Origin: Desulfobacteraceae bacterium | Lineage (GTDB): Bacteria; Desulfobacterota; Desulfobulbia; Desulfobulbales; Desulfobulbaceae | Direction of reading: 5' to 3' | Assembly: GCA_011372855.1 (NCBI GenBank) | Contig: DSAE01000062.1 | Location: 1 to 38,102 of the forward strand | DNA: 38,102 bases | Made by a program: the position numbers and the translations under genes | In this document: one piece after another, positions 24,094-32,397 of the stretch | Layout of the letters: each line of letters starts with the position of its first letter | Position numbering within the stretch: the stretch's first letter is position 1 | The notes under the pieces: model-generated | Told to the model about the DNA's origin: nothing | The model's database searches: none | What the model saw: the letters and a program-made list of their open reading frames with translations, nothing else

Positions 24094-24519
24094 TCAACTC
24101 AGCTTGGCAAGACGTCGTTGATGCCTGCCGCCGGCAAATTCCGTGTCCACCCAAACCCTGACTACATCCAGGGCGATTTCGGGACCGACAACCCGGCCGC
24201 CGAGACACAGTATGTTGGCGTCGTTGTGCTCACGACTCATCCGTGCCGTGTAGGATTCATGGCAGAGGGCGGCCCGGATGTCACGATGCCGATTGGCCGC
24301 TATGGACATGCCGATCCCGGTACCGCAGACCAGAATGCCCCGTTCACAACTCCCGTTGCGGACAAGTTCGCATACCCTATCGGCAAAATCGGGATAATCG
24401 ACGGATTCGCCGGAATGGCAACCTGCGTCCCGCACCTCATGGCCCTGTTCCCGGAGATAACCGGCAATCAGCCGTTTCAGTTCCAATCCGCCGTGATCGC
24501 TGCCGACCGAGATGTTCAC
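24094..24519 (-). CDS. rpiB: Ribose 5-phosphate isomerase B
   Basis: ISVGSDHGGLELKRLIAGYLREQGHEVRDAG; GILVCGTGIGMSIAANRHRDIRAALCHE; AREHNDANILCLG-like segment. Confidence 0.95.
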   Translation of the reverse strand: MNISVGSDHGGLELKRLIAGYLREQGHEVRDAGCHSGESVDYPDFADRVCELVRNGSCERGILVCGTGIGMSIAANRHRDIRAALCHESYTARMSREHNDANILCLGGRVVGPEIALDVVRVWVDTEFAGGRHQRRLAKLS

Positions 24520-24539: not shown

Positions 24540-25781
24540 TTACCCCGCGAACCGTTTCATGATGATGACGCCGTTTGTTCCTCCGAAGCCGAAGGAGTTC
24601 GACATGGCGGCGTTGATTCTTTTCTCCCGGGCCGTATTCGGCACATAGTCCAGATCGCAGTCAGGGTCGGGATTGTCCAGGTTTATCGTCGGCGGGATGA
24701 TGCCGTAGTACAGGGTCAGGGCGGTAAATGCCGCCTCTATCCCCCCGGCTCCGCCAAGCATGTGCCCGGTCATGGATTTTGTCGAGCTGACGCAGAGCCT
24801 GTGGGCGTGTTCTCCGAAGACGGATTTGATAGCCAGGGTCTCGCATTTATCATTGAGCGGCGTTGAGGTGCCGTGCGCGTTGATATAATCGATGTCCTCC
24901 GGGTTCATGCCCGCATCCAGCAGGGCCCTCTGCATGCACCTGGCGCCGCCCTCCCCGTTTTCCGGCGGGGCCGCGATGTGATACGCATCGCTGGACTGGC
25001 CGTAGCCGGCCATCTCTGCGTAAATGACCGCGCCGCGACTGAGGGCGTGCTCAAGCTCTTCAAGGACGACGATGCCGGCGCCTTCGGCAATGATAAATCC
25101 GTCACGGTCCCGGTCAAAGGGGCGTGAAGCCCTCCGGGGATCGTCATTCCGGGTCGACAGGGCCTTCATTGCCGCGAATCCCCCCACCGCGAGGGGGCAG
25201 ATAACCGACTCGGTCCCGCCGGTAATGGCCACATCACAATCCCCGTAGGCAACGCTTCTGAACGCCTCGCCGACCGCATGGGTGCCGGCGGCGCATGCCG
25301 TTGACAGGGCCAGGTTCGGCCCCTTGGCATTGAACCGCATGGAAATGTGTCCGGAAGGCATATTGGGAATAATGCGAGGAATCAGGAAGGGAGTAATGCG
25401 TTTGGGCCCTTTTTCCATGTACACCTGATGGTAGTGTTCGATGGTCGACAGCCCGCCCATGCCGCAGCCGGTGATAACGCCGACGCGGTCGGCCTCAGCC
25501 GGGGAAAAAGTCAAGCCGCTGTTGCCAACGGCCATTTCGGAAGCGGCGAGCGCATACTGCACAAACAGGTCCAGATTTTTGACCTGTTTGGCCTCGAAGT
25601 ATTTTTCCGGCTCAAAACCCTTGACTTCGGCGGCAATCCTGGCGGCCTGATCGGAGGCATCAAACCGTGTGATCAGGTCAATGCCCGAACGGCCGTTCAC
25701 CAGGCTGTCCCAGGTTGCCTCGGTGTCTGTCCCCAGCGGGGTCACCAGACCGATACCGGTAACGACTACCCTTCGTTTCAC
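24540..25781 (-). CDS. fabF: Beta-ketoacyl-ACP synthase II
   Basis: RVVVTGIGLVTPLGTDTEATWDSLVNGRSGI; STACAAGTHAVGEAF active-site Cys; NAHGTSTPLND; KSMTGHMLGGAGGIEA. Confidence 0.97.
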   Translation of the reverse strand: MKRRVVVTGIGLVTPLGTDTEATWDSLVNGRSGIDLITRFDASDQAARIAAEVKGFEPEKYFEAKQVKNLDLFVQYALAASEMAVGNSGLTFSPAEADRVGVITGCGMGGLSTIEHYHQVYMEKGPKRITPFLIPRIIPNMPSGHISMRFNAKGPNLALSTACAAGTHAVGEAFRSVAYGDCDVAITGGTESVICPLAVGGFAAMKALSTRNDDPRRASRPFDRDRDGFIIAEGAGIVVLEELEHALSRGAVIYAEMAGYGQSSDAYHIAAPPENGEGGARCMQRALLDAGMNPEDIDYINAHGTSTPLNDKCETLAIKSVFGEHAHRLCVSSTKSMTGHMLGGAGGIEAAFTALTLYYGIIPPTINLDNPDPDCDLDYVPNTAREKRINAAMSNSFGFGGTNGVIIMKRFAG

Positions 25782-25798
25782 AATGACGGACTCCGTTC

Positions 25799-26032
25799 TT
25801 AGCTCTGCAGTTTCTTGACAAAGTCAATGGCATCCTGCACCGTGGTGATCTTTTCGGCTTCCTCGTCAGGAATCTCCACGTCGAATTCCTCTTCCATGGC
25901 CATGATGAGCTCCACCAGGTCAAGGGAGTCGGCACCCAGATCGTCCACAAACGAAGTCCCGGGAACAACCTTGTCCTTGTCCACGCTCAGCTGCTCCACA
26001 ATGATGTCAATCATTTTGCTTTCAACCGCCAT
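25799..26032 (-). CDS. acpP: Acyl carrier protein
   Basis: [35 protein letters not shown] with DSL phosphopantetheine site. Confidence 0.98.
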
Positions 26033-26185: not shown

Positions 26186-26935
26186 TCAGCTCCCCATGTA
26201 CATGCCGCCGTTGACATGCAGGGTCTGACCGGTCATATAGCCGCTGTCCGGCGAAGCGAGAAAAGCGACGGCGGCGGCGACATCCTCCGGCTGTCCCAGT
26301 GTTCCCAGGGGGATTTGGGCCCGAATGGCTTCCCGGATGTCCTCGGGCAGGCTGCTGGTCATGTCGGTGACAATGTAGCCGGGCGCGACGCAGTTGACCG
26401 TAATGTTACGGCCGGCCAGTTCCCGGGCCATTGATCTGGTCATACCCACCAGTCCGGCCTTGGCCGCGGCATAGTTGACCTGTCCGGCGTTGCCGAGAAA
26501 GCCGATAACCGACGTCATGTTGATAATCCGGCCCCATCTTTTCTTCATCATCCCTTTCATGGCCGCCTTGCTGCAGGTAAACGCCCCCTTGAGGTTCGTG
26601 TCCAGGACCTGGTCCCAGTCCGTGGTCTTCATCCTGGCCATCAGGCCGTCCCGGGTGATACCGGCATTGTTGACCAGAATGTCCACCGCTTCATGGGCGG
26701 CGGCGACATCCTTCATCCCGCTCTCCACCGCTGCCGGATCGGCAACATCGAAAGGGGCGAGAAAGGCCGTTCCCCCTTCCTCACGAATACGGTTCAGGGT
26801 TTCTTCGGCGGCGCTGCTGTTGCGCACGTAATTGATGCCGACCACGGCCCCCATGCGGGCGAGCCGCAAACAGACCTGTTGTCCGATCCCCCTGCCGCCG
26901 CCGGTGACAAGGGCTGTCTTTCCCGTCAGTGTCAT
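26186..26935 (-). CDS. fabG: 3-oxoacyl-ACP reductase
   Basis: GKTALVTGGGRGIGQQVCLRLA; NNAGITRDGLMARM; NMTSVIGFLGNAGQVNYAAAKAGLVGMT; GYMTGQTLHVNGGMYM. Confidence 0.97.
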   Translation of the reverse strand: MTLTGKTALVTGGGRGIGQQVCLRLARMGAVVGINYVRNSSAAEETLNRIREEGGTAFLAPFDVADPAAVESGMKDVAAAHEAVDILVNNAGITRDGLMARMKTTDWDQVLDTNLKGAFTCSKAAMKGMMKKRWGRIINMTSVIGFLGNAGQVNYAAAKAGLVGMTRSMARELAGRNITVNCVAPGYIVTDMTSSLPEDIREAIRAQIPLGTLGQPEDVAAAVAFLASPDSGYMTGQTLHVNGGMYMGS

Positions 26936-28125
26936 TTTCCCCGATTCTCCCTGATTCGCCTGGTCAGCAGCGGCACGATCTCAAAAAGGTCGCCCACCAG
27001 GCTGTAGGTGGCGATATCGAAAATAGGGGCATTCTCGTCCTTGTTGATCGCGACGATGGTTTTTGCCGACTGCATGCCCACCGTATGTTGAATCGCCCCG
27101 GAAATGCCGCAGGCAATATAGAGCTTGGGGCAGACCGTCTTGCCGGTCTGGCCGACCTGGTGCGGATAGGAGATCCAGCCCGAATCGACCGCCGCCCGGG
27201 AGGCCGCGACGGCTCCGCCCAGTTCCTCGGCCAGCCCGCGGATCAGCTCGAACCCTTTTTCACTGGCAAGGCCGCGGCCGCCGGCGACGAGGATCTCAAC
27301 CTCCTGGATGTTGACGTTATCCTGCTCGCTCCGGACCGATTCAAGAACTTCGACCCGGGAGCGGTAGACCCGGTCGTCGAGTTCGACGAGGATCACCTCG
27401 CCGGTGCGGGCGGGATCCGGTTCCAGCGGCGCCATGACTTTCGGCCGGACCGTTGCCATCTGCGGCCTCGAATTGGGGCAGACTATGGTCGCCATGATAT
27501 TGCCGCCGAAGGCCGGCCGGGTCTGGAGCAGCATTCCGTCCTCGGAACGGATGGACAGCTGGGTGCAATCCGCGGTCAGCCCGGCATTGAGACCATTGGC
27601 CACCTGGGGGATGAAGGACCTGCCGATGGCGGTCGCGCCCGCCAGCACCACCTCGGGACGCCGGGCACGAATCAGCTCCTCGAGGACCCTGCCGTAGACG
27701 TCTTCACGGAAATACTCCAGCTCCGGATTGTCGACGACATAAACCAGGTCGGCCCCGGAAGCGATCAACAGGCCGGCGCCCTCCTCGACCCCGGATCCCA
27801 TCAGAACCGCGCTCAGCGGTACACCGCGCTGATCGGCAAGTGTGCGGCCGATTCCCAGCAGTTCAAAGGAAACCGGTGCGATTCCGCCATGGCGGAATTC
27901 GGCAACCACCCATATTCCCGACCATTCGCCAAGTTCGGCGCCGGTCTCCTTTGCAGCCCCCTCAATATTCAGTGCCCCGGGTTCGCACGTTTCAACGCAT
28001 GCCCCGCACAGGGTGCAGTTATCGTTCACCACCGCGCAGCCGTCTACTACCGAAATGGCGCCAAAGGCGCAGTTCTCTTCACAAACTCCGCAGCCTATGC
28101 ATTTTTCCTTGTCAACGATGAGCAT
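26932..28125 (-). CDS. etfA: Electron transfer flavoprotein alpha subunit with N-terminal 2x[4Fe-4S] ferredoxin domain
   Basis: Two CX2CX2CX3C motifs (CIGCGVCEENC; CTLCGACVETC); ETF-alpha C-terminus GRGLASEKGFELIRGLAEELGGAVAASRAAVDSGWISYPHQVGQTGKTVCPKLYIACGISGAIQHTVGM. Confidence 0.95.
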   Translation of the reverse strand: MLIVDKEKCIGCGVCEENCAFGAISVVDGCAVVNDNCTLCGACVETCEPGALNIEGAAKETGAELGEWSGIWVVAEFRHGGIAPVSFELLGIGRTLADQRGVPLSAVLMGSGVEEGAGLLIASGADLVYVVDNPELEYFREDVYGRVLEELIRARRPEVVLAGATAIGRSFIPQVANGLNAGLTADCTQLSIRSEDGMLLQTRPAFGGNIMATIVCPNSRPQMATVRPKVMAPLEPDPARTGEVILVELDDRVYRSRVEVLESVRSEQDNVNIQEVEILVAGGRGLASEKGFELIRGLAEELGGAVAASRAAVDSGWISYPHQVGQTGKTVCPKLYIACGISGAIQHTVGMQSAKTIVAINKDENAPIFDIATYSLVGDLFEIVPLLTRRIRENRGK

Positions 28126-28225
28126 GAAATGTTTCCTGAAAGGTCTCCCGATCGACTGGTGCGATCATCTTTTACTGCATCCGGGCCGGTGAGGCAGGAG
28201 CGGCGGCAAGGACTTCCCTTCGGGC

Positions 28226-29005
28226 CTACAGGTAGGCCTTCAGGCGCTCGACGAGCTGCCCGATCTGCTCCTCAACGGTCCCGGTAAATACCGTACGGTT
28301 CCCGCGCGGTGGAGGCGTAAACACACTGACGACCTGGGTCGGTGAACCGGCAAGGCCGATGCACTGCTTTTCCGCCCCGATATCTGCTGCGGTCAGCACC
28401 TTGATTTCTGCCTTTTTTGCTTTCATCTTGCCCCGCAGGGAGGGTACCCGGGGTTCATTGATATTCTTGACCACGGTCAGCAGGGCCGGCAGAGGCAGCC
28501 GGACAACATCGTAGCCGTCGTCCATCATACGCTCAACTATCATCTCCCCGTCGGCCAGGGATCTGATTTTCTGCACGCAGGTTACATACGGCCGATCAAG
28601 CTGACAGGCAAGTCCCGGACCGACCTGGGCGGTATCACCGTCGATGGCCTGCTTGCCGCATAAAACCAGGTCAAAATTACCGAGAGAGGAAACCGCCCTG
28701 GCCAGGGTATACGATGTTGCCCAGGTGTCGGCGCCGGCAAATGCCCTGTCGGAGATCAGCACCCCATCGTCGGCTCCGCAGGAAATGGCCTCCCTCAGAA
28801 CGGCTTCGGCCTGGGGCGGGCCCATGGAAATGGCGGTGACCGTTCCCCCCGCTTCCTCCTTGATGCGGACCGCCTCCTCCAGCGCATGCCGGTCGAACGG
28901 GTTCATGATGGATGACACCCCTTCCCGGGCCATGGTGTTGGTTTTTGGATCAAGCCGGACATCCTTGGTGTCGGGGACCTGTTTGATGCAAACTATGATG
29001 TTCAT
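28226..29005 (-). CDS. etfB: Electron transfer flavoprotein beta subunit
   Basis: MNIIVCIKQVPDTKDVRLDPKTNTMAREGV; DLVLCGKQAIDGDTAQVGPGLACQLDRP; LPALLTVVKNINEPRVPSLRGKMKAKK. Confidence 0.96.
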   Translation of the reverse strand: MNIIVCIKQVPDTKDVRLDPKTNTMAREGVSSIMNPFDRHALEEAVRIKEEAGGTVTAISMGPPQAEAVLREAISCGADDGVLISDRAFAGADTWATSYTLARAVSSLGNFDLVLCGKQAIDGDTAQVGPGLACQLDRPYVTCVQKIRSLADGEMIVERMMDDGYDVVRLPLPALLTVVKNINEPRVPSLRGKMKAKKAEIKVLTAADIGAEKQCIGLAGSPTQVVSVFTPPPRGNRTVFTGTVEEQIGQLVERLKAYL

Positions 29006-29029
29006 TCTCAGGGACTTCGTTTTCCGGAG

Positions 29030-30187
29030 TTAGATGGTGTATTCCCTGTTCAGTTCCTGGCCGACCACATTGCGCTGGATCTGGTTGGTTCCTTCATAGA
29101 TCTGCAGGATCTTGGCGTCGCGCATCATTTTTTCCACCGGATACTCTTTCATGTAGCCGTAGCCGCCGAGGACCTGGACCGCGTCCGTCGTCACCTTCAT
29201 GGCCATGTCGGTGGCAAAGACCTTGCACATCGATGAAGCCTTGCTCATGTTCCTGGGATTGTTGTCGATATGGCGGGAAGCCGCATAGACGAGGGCCCTG
29301 GCTGCTTCAAGTTGAATGGCCATGTCGGCCAGCATGTGCTGGACGGCCTGGAACGAAATGATCGGCTTGCCGAACTGTATCCGCTGCTTGGCATAGGTGA
29401 CCGCTTCGTCGAGGGCCGCCTGGGCCAGGCCGACGCCCAGGGAGGCAATTCCGGGCCGCGATACATCCAGGGTCTTCATGACCGTGATGAAGCCGGTTCC
29501 CTGTCGGCCCACCAGCCGATCTCCGGGAATGCGGCAGTCATTCATTATCAGTTCACGGGTGGCGGAGGCGCGAATCCCCATTTTATTTTCCTTTTTGCCG
29601 TAGGAAAAACCGGGATCACCGTCTTCAACAATAAAAATGGACGCCCCGCGGGCACCCTTGGATGGATCGGTGATGGCGATGATGGAGTAGATCTGCGATT
29701 CACCGCCGTTGGTGATCCACTGCTTGGTGCCGTTCAACACCCATTCATCGCCGTCCAGGACCGCCGTGGTCTGAACCCCGGAGGCGTCACTGCCGGCGTT
29801 GGCCTCGGTCAGGCCGAATGCCGCCCATTTTCTGCCCGCGGCGATGTCGGGCAGGTACTTTTCCTTCATCTGTTCACTGCCGGCGATGAGCACCGGAAAA
29901 ATACCCAGGGCGCTGGCCGCGTAACTGGTGGCGACGCCGACGCAGCCGCGGGCCAACTGCTCCAGGGCCAGCACTATCTCAAAACAGCCGCCGCCAAATC
30001 CGCCGTACTGCTCGGGTACGAATATACCAAACAGGTCGGCCCTGGCCATGTCCTGAAGAATATCGGTCGGGAACTCGTTCTTTTCGTCGAGTTCGGCCCG
30101 CCTGGGGACGATCTTTTCATCGGCGATCTCCCGGGCGGTGTCCACGATCATCTGTTGTTCTTCCGTTAACAAGTAATCCAAGGTCAT
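29030..30187 (-). CDS. Acyl-CoA dehydrogenase family flavoprotein
   Basis: AFGLTEANAGSDASGVQTTAVLDGDEWVLNGTKQWITNGG; YAKQRIQFGKPIISFQAVQHMLADMA; VLGGYGYMKEYPVEKMMRDAKILQIYEGTNQIQRNVV with the catalytic-Glu YEGT motif. Confidence 0.97.
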   Translation of the reverse strand: MTLDYLLTEEQQMIVDTAREIADEKIVPRRAELDEKNEFPTDILQDMARADLFGIFVPEQYGGFGGGCFEIVLALEQLARGCVGVATSYAASALGIFPVLIAGSEQMKEKYLPDIAAGRKWAAFGLTEANAGSDASGVQTTAVLDGDEWVLNGTKQWITNGGESQIYSIIAITDPSKGARGASIFIVEDGDPGFSYGKKENKMGIRASATRELIMNDCRIPGDRLVGRQGTGFITVMKTLDVSRPGIASLGVGLAQAALDEAVTYAKQRIQFGKPIISFQAVQHMLADMAIQLEAARALVYAASRHIDNNPRNMSKASSMCKVFATDMAMKVTTDAVQVLGGYGYMKEYPVEKMMRDAKILQIYEGTNQIQRNVVGQELNREYTI

Positions 30188-30193
30188 CTCCCC

Positions 30194-31171
30194 TTACCAT
30201 TGCATGAGCATTGATCCCCAGGTAAATCCGCCGCCGAAGGAACAGAACAGCAGCAGGTCCCCGCGCCGCAGTATTCCCTTTCTGTTCGCCTCGTCAAGGG
30301 AAATGGGAATACTTGCAGCAGACGTATTACCATATTTATCCACGTTAATATAGACCTTTTCCCGTGGTACGCCGAGACGTTCCATGAGCTTGTTCAAAAT
30401 GCGGATATTGGCCTGATGGGGTATCATCAGATTGATGTCGCTGATCGTGACCCCGTTTCTGTCAAGCAGTTCGACAACCGCCTCCTCCATGGCCTTTACT
30501 GCATACTTGAAGACATCCCGGCCGATCATCTGGATATAGCAGCCGTTATGATCATTCTGGACAAGATCGGGATTAAGGCTCGCCGGCCCGTGCATGTACA
30601 GCAGATTCCACAATCTGCCGTCGGAGCGGAGGTTGGAATCAACCACGCCGCGACTGCCCTCACGGGAGGACATCACGCAGGCGCCGGCCCCGTCGCCGAA
30701 CAGTATGCAGGTGTTACGATCCTGCCAGTTGACCCGGGCAGAGAGTGTTTCCGATCCGATCAGCAATATTTTCATGTCCGGCCGGCTGACCACATACTTG
30801 TCAGCCAGATCCAGGCCGTAAAGAAAACCGGTGCAGGCGGCATTGATGTCGTAGGCATGGGCATTATCGGCGCCGATCTCCGCCTGAACGAAACAGGCAC
30901 TGGAGGGCATCATCATGTGCGGGGTCATGGTGGCCACCACCAGGAGATCGATCTCTTCCGCATGCAGTCCGGCCATGTCCAGCGCCTTGCGCGCCGCTCC
31001 GGCGGCTATCCGGTAGTTTTCCTCTCCCCTGCCGGCTATGCGCCGTGTATGAATGCCTGTCCTGGTCGTTATCCATTCATCGGAAGTATTGACCATCTTT
31101 TCCAGGTCGAAATTCGTCAGCTGCCTTTGCGGAAGGTATGAGCCGGTTCCAAGTATAGAGGCATGTTTCAT
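30194..31171 (-). CDS. fabH: Beta-ketoacyl-ACP synthase III
   Basis: ILGTGSYLPQRQLTN; TSDEWITTRTGI; YDINAACTGFLYGLDLA active Cys; MIPHQANIRILNKL; YGNTSAASIPISLDEA. Confidence 0.97.
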   Translation of the reverse strand: MKHASILGTGSYLPQRQLTNFDLEKMVNTSDEWITTRTGIHTRRIAGRGEENYRIAAGAARKALDMAGLHAEEIDLLVVATMTPHMMMPSSACFVQAEIGADNAHAYDINAACTGFLYGLDLADKYVVSRPDMKILLIGSETLSARVNWQDRNTCILFGDGAGACVMSSREGSRGVVDSNLRSDGRLWNLLYMHGPASLNPDLVQNDHNGCYIQMIGRDVFKYAVKAMEEAVVELLDRNGVTISDINLMIPHQANIRILNKLMERLGVPREKVYINVDKYGNTSAASIPISLDEANRKGILRRGDLLLFCSFGGGFTWGSMLMQW

Positions 31172-31192: not shown

Positions 31193-32200
31193 TCAGACGG
31201 TCTGCTCTTCCAGAGCCTGGATGATGGACTCGTTGACTTTGTTGCGCACCATATTCGCGGCGATGACTATGGCGTTCTTGATGGCGACGGAATTGGACTT
31301 GCCGTGACTGACGATGCCGGCGCCGTTAATGCCCAGCAGAGGCGCGCCGCCATATTCGGCGTAATCAACCCTTTTGCGAAAATTGTTGAACGCATGGCGA
31401 ATGAGCAGATAACCGAGCTTGGCACGCAGGGACTTTTCGATTTCACTCCTGAGCATCTGCATGGCGGCCTCGGCGAGCCCTTCACTGACCTTGAGCGAGA
31501 CGTTGCCGACAAAGCCGTCACAGACGATCACGTCGACATTGCCCTGATAGACATCACGTCCTTCCACATTGCCGAAGAAATTCAACTTGCTTGCGCTCAG
31601 CAGCTCGTGGGCCTCCTTGACCAGCGTGTTGCCTTTGCCCGCCTCCTCGCCGATGCTGAGCAAGCCGACCCGCGGCCTGTCAAGCTTCAGAATCTTGCTG
31701 ATGCATGACGACGCCATGATGGCGAACTGGAGTAGATGCTGGGGCCGGCAATCCACATTGGCGCCCAGGTCCATGATCATGACGGGATTTTTCAGGGTCG
31801 GAAAAAGACTGGCGATGCCGGGCCGGGACACCCCCTTCAGCCGTCCCAGCTTCTTTATGGCGGAAGCCATGGTCGCCCCGGAGTTTCCAGCCGAGACAAC
31901 GGCGTCCGCCCTTTCCGCCTTTACCAGTTCGAAACCGACCATGATGGTCGAGTTTTTTTTCCTCCGGACCGCATCGACCGGAGTCTCATGCATGGTGATG
32001 GTTTCCGGCGCGTGTTCAATGTGCAGCCGTCGCGCAACATCATCGTTCATCCCCAGGGTGGCAAGCTGCTGGGAGAGGAAGTCCGAGGGCCCGAGCAGTA
32101 TGATCTCGAAGTCCTTGTTGCCGCGCAGAGCCGAAAGAGCGCCCTCGATGATCAGTTCGGGCCCGCAGTCGCCGCCCATGGCATCCAGAGCTATGCGCAC
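31193..32200 (-). CDS. plsX: Phosphate acyltransferase PlsX
   Basis: MRIALDAMGGDCGPELIIEGAL; GNSGATMASAIKKLGRLKGVSRPGIASLFP; EYGGAPLLGINGAGIVSHGKS. Confidence 0.97.
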   Translation of the reverse strand: MRIALDAMGGDCGPELIIEGALSALRGNKDFEIILLGPSDFLSQQLATLGMNDDVARRLHIEHAPETITMHETPVDAVRRKKNSTIMVGFELVKAERADAVVSAGNSGATMASAIKKLGRLKGVSRPGIASLFPTLKNPVMIMDLGANVDCRPQHLLQFAIMASSCISKILKLDRPRVGLLSIGEEAGKGNTLVKEAHELLSASKLNFFGNVEGRDVYQGNVDVIVCDGFVGNVSLKVSEGLAEAAMQMLRSEIEKSLRAKLGYLLIRHAFNNFRKRVDYAEYGGAPLLGINGAGIVSHGKSNSVAIKNAIVIAANMVRNKVNESIIQALEEQTV

Positions 32201-32208
32201 GTTGCGTC

Positions 32209-32397
32209 CTAACCGAGGTCTTCCTCGAGGTGGATGACGGCCCTGTTCTTATACGTGCCGCATCCGCCGCATAACCGATGGGGAAGCTTCGGTTCGCCGC
32301 ACTCGGGACAGGCAACGGTGTTGGGCGCTTTCAGGGCGTCATGGGCTCTCCGCTTCCTGGTTCGTGAATGTGAATGTCGTCTTTTGGGTAAAGCCAT
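32209..32397 (-). CDS. rpmF: 50S ribosomal protein L32
   Basis: MALPKRRHSHSRTRKRRAHDALKAPNTVACPECGEPKLPHRLCGGCGTYKNRAVI. Confidence 0.97.
   Translation of the reverse strand: MALPKRRHSHSRTRKRRAHDALKAPNTVACPECGEPKLPHRLCGGCGTYKNRAVIHLEEDLG

Follow-up and report, generated by a model that had tools for sequence, protein, structure and literature searches.

An acyl-CoA dehydrogenase/Etf cassette in the fatty acid synthesis operon of Desulfobacterota as a candidate enoyl-ACP reductase

Gene organization of the operon

The window analyzed in this study is a whole contig of 38,102 nucleotides (DSAE01000062.1, assembly GCA_011372855.1; our contig C5) from the draft genome of a Desulfobacteraceae bacterium. 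This genome has a size of 2.7 Mb and is 96% complete, and its closest named relatives by Acd sequence are Desulfobulbaceae. The minus strand of the window contains a tight cluster, rpmF-plsX-fabH-acd-etfB-etfA-fabG-acpP-fabF-rpiB, in which genes for an acyl-CoA dehydrogenase (ACAD) family protein, Acd, and for the two subunits of an electron transfer flavoprotein (Etf) are enclosed by genes of type II fatty acid synthesis. This acd-etfBA cassette is the subject of the present analysis. The genes of the cluster are the following:

32209-32397, minus strand: rpmF, ribosomal protein L32 (open reading frame of 62 amino acids, direct reading)
31193-32200, minus strand: plsX, phosphate acyltransferase (TIGR00182)
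30194-31171, minus strand: fabH, beta-ketoacyl-acyl carrier protein (ACP) synthase III (TIGR00747, above cut-off)
29030-30187, minus strand: acd, candidate ACAD-family enoyl-thioester reductase, 385 amino acids (Pfam Acyl-CoA_dh N/M/1)
28226-29005, minus strand: etfB, CarD-like Etf beta subunit, 259 amino acids, with the DRAFAGADTWATS motif (Pfam Etf domain)
26932-28125, minus strand: etfA, CarE-like Etf alpha subunit with an N-terminal two-cluster ferredoxin domain, 397 amino acids (Pfam domains)
26186-26935, minus strand: fabG, 3-oxoacyl-ACP reductase (TIGR01830, above cut-off)
25799-26032, minus strand: acpP, acyl carrier protein (family models)
24540-25781, minus strand: fabF, beta-ketoacyl-ACP synthase II (TIGR03150, above cut-off)
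24094-24519, minus strand: rpiB, ribose-5-phosphate isomerase B, a conserved operon neighbour (TIGR01120)

The intergenic gaps are 6 nucleotides between fabH and acd, 24 between acd and etfB, and 100 between etfB and etfA, while etfA and fabG are joined by an ATGA overlap. Re-reading of the sequence together with the family models confirmed the gene order, strand and joins described in an earlier note on this DNA. That note also placed the cassette where fabD usually lies, which is lineage-specific, as other genomes have acd-etfBA beside fabD. Its remark that the window contains no fabD, fabZ or enoyl-ACP reductase does not extend to the genome: fabD is found on contig C46, beside lspA/ileS, which rejects its loss, and FabZ-like and divergent FabI-like genes are located on contig C1. 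The fabZ gene usual in 27 other tested genomes was not found in this one, where the FabZ-like gene on C1 is the only candidate; this probably represents an assembly gap.

Relatives of the three cassette proteins

In Acetobacterium woodii, CarC (ACAD fold), CarD (EtfB) and CarE (EtfA with a ferredoxin domain) perform an NADH-driven reduction of an enoyl-CoA and bifurcate electrons to ferredoxin. The likeness to CarCDE asserted in the earlier note holds for the Etf subunits, but the dehydrogenase stands nearer to Bcd and other ACADs. Acd has all three Pfam ACAD domains (N-terminal, middle and C-terminal) above cut-off, with Glu365 as the catalytic glutamate within IYEGTNQIQR, a motif that is kept in the Acds of fab operons. 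Among solved structures, actinobacterial ACADs and the Bcd of clostridia are closest to Acd, scoring 395-399 bits at about 48-52% identity, compared to 330 bits for CarC. The AlphaFold model (mean pLDDT 80) matches ACAD and Bcd structures at a TM score of about 0.9. Bcd and other ACADs precede CarC, which takes only tenth place in the sequence ranking and 49th place in the fold ranking. On these rankings, Acd was rejected as a CarC-type subunit.

The Etf pair shows a different affiliation. The best solved relatives are CarE for EtfA (422 bits) and CarD for EtfB (264 bits), with the top five PDB matches of EtfB (227-264 bits) being CarD, the Acidaminococcus fermentans protein, LctB, the Clostridioides difficile protein and 7koe. 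Canonical EtfB proteins reach at most 117 bits and EtfA gives the same picture, canonical Etfs attaining about half the score of the bifurcating type or less. By sequence, the window EtfAB thus belongs to the bifurcating Etf group, apart from canonical Etf. The N-terminus of EtfA contains two intact CxxCxxCxxxC ferredoxin motifs, and this domain, with its eight cluster cysteines, is present in 111 of 126 EtfA proteins. A CarDE-like Etf is therefore combined with a Bcd/ACAD-like dehydrogenase, and the former probably bifurcates electrons to ferredoxin.

None of the three proteins matches FabI, FabL, FabK or FabV; they only match ACAD, Etf and ferredoxin-type families. The acryloyl-CoA reductase AcrCAB (NCBIfam NF042970-72) is the top NCBIfam match for Acd and EtfA and the second for EtfB, but all three cassette proteins remain under the curated cut-offs. 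In a tree of 128 sequences, built with a quick method that leaves deep placements tentative, all fab Acds fall in one supported branch together with some relatives from outside fab operons. Bcd, the ACADs of actinobacteria and the paralogues from Desulfobacterota are separate from this branch, and Arg30, Gln156, His284, Met346 and Lys353 are residues typical of the fab Acd clade. The clade members from Nitrospirota at loci L031, L033, L034, L036, L040 and L044 are not part of fab operons, and their genomes gave no FabI or FabK matches.

In 29 of the 38 genomes tested, among them the own genome, no PF00441 protein other than the fab-clade Acd is present; the sample favoured genomes with few ACAD candidates. 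An ACAD of beta-oxidation, one of several and encoded apart from synthesis genes, is not what was found: a lone ACAD within a fab operon is hard to reconcile with such a role.

Recurrence of the cassette and distribution of known enoyl-ACP reductases

We surveyed 297 genomes of the phylum, many of which are metagenome-assembled genomes (MAGs), and called Acd at E <= 1e-140. A close Acd is present in 138 of them, and acd is accompanied by at least two nearby fab genes in 113 out of 120 fetched loci, 68 of which also contain etfBA. Of the seven remaining loci, several are truncated by a contig end or by the choice of region for fetching; genome G180 has acd-etfBA without fab genes nearby. Nearly all of the Desulfobulbaceae-like loci (L002-L030, of which some are truncated at a contig end) have the order plsX-fabH-acd-etfB-etfA-fabG-acpP-fabF-rpiB. 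The cassette is also present in a cultured species, Desulfogranum marinum DSM 2058 (L004), and the same arrangement occurs in many other families. Dozens of independent genomes share this gene order, so that misassembly or a chance insertion unique to this assembly, which the earlier note had seen as fatal to its proposal, is ruled out. Outside the phylum, fab-embedded Acds were found in Nitrospirota, Margulisiibacteriota/Saganbacteria, Edwardsbacteria, UBP2 and Omnitrophota. The order fabH-acd-etfB-etfA-fabD-fabG is seen in Thermodesulfovibrionia (L046) and Margulisiibacteriota (L058), and acd lies a short distance from fabF or fabD in Edwardsbacteria, UBP2 and Omnitrophota. The synteny survey suggested in the earlier note thus reveals a cassette that is recurrent across families and phyla.

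The synteny also bears on the possibility that Acd-EtfBA works on CoA esters, supplying or trimming starter or feed-in acyl-CoAs (such as butyryl- or branched acyl-CoA for use by FabH, or fatty acids of exogenous origin), with enoyl-ACP reduction left to another, unrecognized enzyme. The closeness of Acd to Bcd and to ACADs that use CoA esters would fit such a role, as would the position of acd directly after fabH in the window. However, acd is located between plsX and fabD in many genomes, with no fabH at that place, which links it to the fab cycle rather than to FabH. Moreover, many genomes combine a single ACAD with the absence of any recognized enoyl-ACP reductase, and we consider this explanation unlikely.

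For the known reductases, typical FabI was defined by E < 1e-55 to E. coli FabI and FabK was counted above its curated cut-off, while weak FabI matches in relatives were read singly and assigned to a FabL-like or a divergent FabI-like group by the Y-x6-K region. Typical FabI occurs in 53 of the 297 genomes, namely in 3 of 138 with Acd versus 50 of 159 without (Fisher p = 1.7e-12, uncorrected for shared ancestry). At the family level, it is present in 1 of 42 Acd families versus 19 of 53 others (p = 3e-5). Typical FabI and fab Acd are thus nearly mutually exclusive. FabK exceeds the cut-off in four genomes, none of them among the 138 with Acd, and FabV is found in a single genome, which does have Acd. 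No FabI, FabL, FabV or FabK-like gene was detected in 74 Acd genomes even at loose thresholds, including the single-contig genomes G195, G038, G101, G214 and G269. Among 48 further Acd-bearing genomes, mostly of other phyla, 42 have no FabI match and one has FabK above cut-off. FabZ was found in all 28 genomes tested. Every textbook enoyl-ACP reductase appears to be absent from a large part of Desulfobacterota. Inspection around fabH in 20 genomes with neither FabI nor Acd revealed no Acd at any of these sites, and about half of them have the canonical plsX-fabH-fabD-fabG order, whole or in part, without acd (for example L258, L260, L263, L267 and L268, with neither Acd nor typical FabI).

In the own genome, a divergent FabI-like gene escaped the first FabI search and came to light when the divergent FabI of a relative served as query. 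The gene is located on contig C1 within a lipid cluster (L290:3719-14151, about 32.2-42.7 kb of the contig), surrounded by genes for FabF-like, two phytoene-desaturase-like, FabG, FabZ-like, OleA-like and OleC-like proteins. This cluster resembles one in Desulfotalea and Kuenenia that has been linked to polyunsaturated hydrocarbons (PMC2649909). FabL-type homologues (L246-L251, 64-100% identical to the copy in G117) occur alongside the Acd cassette in some Desulfobulbales and in family f19.

Such a divergent FabI-like or FabL-like protein could be the housekeeping enzyme in Desulfobulbales, with Acd-EtfBA in an auxiliary or redox-balancing role. This would agree with the presence of a FabI-like gene in this genome and its family, with the FabL-like proteins in G117, G171, G281, G145, G261 and family f19, and with a 2009 study that placed the FabI of Desulfotalea outside the main fab loci (PMC2649909). 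Yet the FabI-like gene sits among OleA-, OleC-, FabF- and phytoene-desaturase-like genes, its product scores well below the NCBIfam FabI cut-offs, and most of the Acd genomes tested, G218 and G240 among them, have no gene of this type. It is likewise absent from related Acd genomes such as the single-contig G195, which have no other recognized enoyl reductase either. It therefore cannot be the general housekeeping enzyme, although it may have a dual role within its own family; as an overall explanation this is quite improbable.

Proposed function and comparison with known systems

We consider it likely that Acd is a housekeeping enoyl-ACP reductase, fed by NADH via a CarDE-like Etf that probably bifurcates to ferredoxin. 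As judged from genome context and complementary distribution, the reductase function is strongly supported; the Etf-dependent enoyl-thioester reductase for lipid synthesis suggested in the earlier note gains from the operon context, the near exclusion of FabI, the absence of alternatives in many genomes and the frequent status of Acd as sole ACAD. We infer that the acyl carrier is ACP and not CoA, that NADH donates the electrons and that bifurcation takes place, and a ferredoxin link of lipid synthesis is plausible.

Several observations weigh against this assignment. The nearest characterized ACADs use CoA esters, and some close Acd relatives (in Nitrospirota, Bacillota and Lentisphaerae) lie outside fab operons. 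In 45 of the 113 fab-embedded loci no Etf genes adjoin acd, with fabD sometimes alongside. Three Acd genomes do have a typical FabI, FabL-like proteins occur in 14 genomes, ten of them with Acd, and the own genome encodes the divergent FabI-like protein. We should note that 47 genomes without Acd likewise show no recognized enoyl reductase, which means that the searches miss some of these enzymes and that the absence calls are not exhaustive; in addition, many of the surveyed genomes are MAGs, which lose genes.

In the proposed mechanism, Acd would take the place of FabI, FabK, FabL or FabV in type II fatty acid synthesis. The FabZ product, trans-2-enoyl-ACP, would bind in the ACAD active site and be reduced to acyl-ACP by the FADH2 of Acd, the reverse of acyl-CoA dehydrogenation, after which the co-encoded EtfBA would re-reduce Acd with electrons from NADH. 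Given that EtfBA belongs to the bifurcating CarDE type and that EtfA has a two-cluster ferredoxin domain, two NADH would probably be oxidized per enoyl reduction, yielding one acyl-ACP and two reduced ferredoxins (two electrons) and saving via ferredoxin energy that FabI would lose. In operons with acd only, the Etf would presumably come from elsewhere in the genome. The enoyl/acyl couple lies near -10 mV and NADH near -320 mV, which leaves room for bifurcation, as in Bcd-Etf. The bifurcation reaction of Bcd-Etf is described in two publications (PMC5691135, PMC11480532).

Acd could also operate in the opposite direction, as an acyl-ACP dehydrogenase that makes unsaturated fatty acids anaerobically with Etf as electron acceptor. 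A precedent is FabX, a flavin acyl-ACP dehydrogenase/isomerase of fatty acid synthesis (PMC8626469). But the reductase step would then stay unfilled in genomes without FabI, FabK, FabL or FabV, characterized CarDE-like Etfs pass NADH electrons to enoyl substrates, and no isomerase function is evident in this ACAD, which makes this possibility very remote.

Chances are about even that an ACAD with a bifurcating Etf forms yet another class of enoyl-ACP reductase, one not described before, by which lipid synthesis regenerates reduced ferredoxin, in much of Desulfobacterota, parts of Nitrospirota and Margulisiibacteriota and other anaerobic lineages. No description of the arrangement or its function was found in the open-access literature searched. 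Enoyl reduction is an essential, strongly exergonic step and the target of several antibacterials. If the assignment is true, an ACAD-Etf complex fills the enoyl reductase gap and adds a structurally unrelated class of enoyl-ACP reductases. It would also change how electron balance is modelled in sulfate reducers and related anaerobes, affect the interpretation of lipid hydrogen isotopes, and make the automated label ‘acyl-CoA dehydrogenase, beta-oxidation’ wrong for these genes in many genomes.

FabI, FabL, FabK and FabV catalyze the same step as proposed for Acd but have an unrelated fold: they belong to the short-chain dehydrogenases or to the FMN-dependent NMO-type enzymes, and Acd to the FAD-containing ACADs, with electrons supplied by an Etf. 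Flavin enzymes acting on carrier-protein-bound acyl groups, as proposed for Acd, are known in Helicobacter FabX, in prolyl-carrier protein dehydrogenases (RedW, PigA, 4irn) and in MbtN. FabX is, however, NMO-type, unlike Acd, and the carrier-linked ACADs (prolyl-carrier protein dehydrogenases, MbtN) oxidize special substrates of secondary metabolism, with Acd far below their family cut-offs. Bcd-EtfAB (C. difficile 5ol2, A. fermentans 4l1f/4kpu, Megasphaera elsdenii) has the same fold as Acd and reduces an enoyl thioester with NADH electrons via a bifurcating Etf, as proposed for the cassette, but Bcd uses crotonyl-CoA in butyrate fermentation and the fab Acds form a separate clade with typical residues of their own. 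CarCDE of A. woodii (PDB 6fah) shares with the cassette the gene order (acd, etfB, ferredoxin-etfA) and the domain make-up. It differs in its dehydrogenase, to which Acd is less close than to Bcd, and in its setting: CarCDE serves caffeate respiration, whereas the cassette lies in a housekeeping fab operon, where its expected substrate would be enoyl-ACP.

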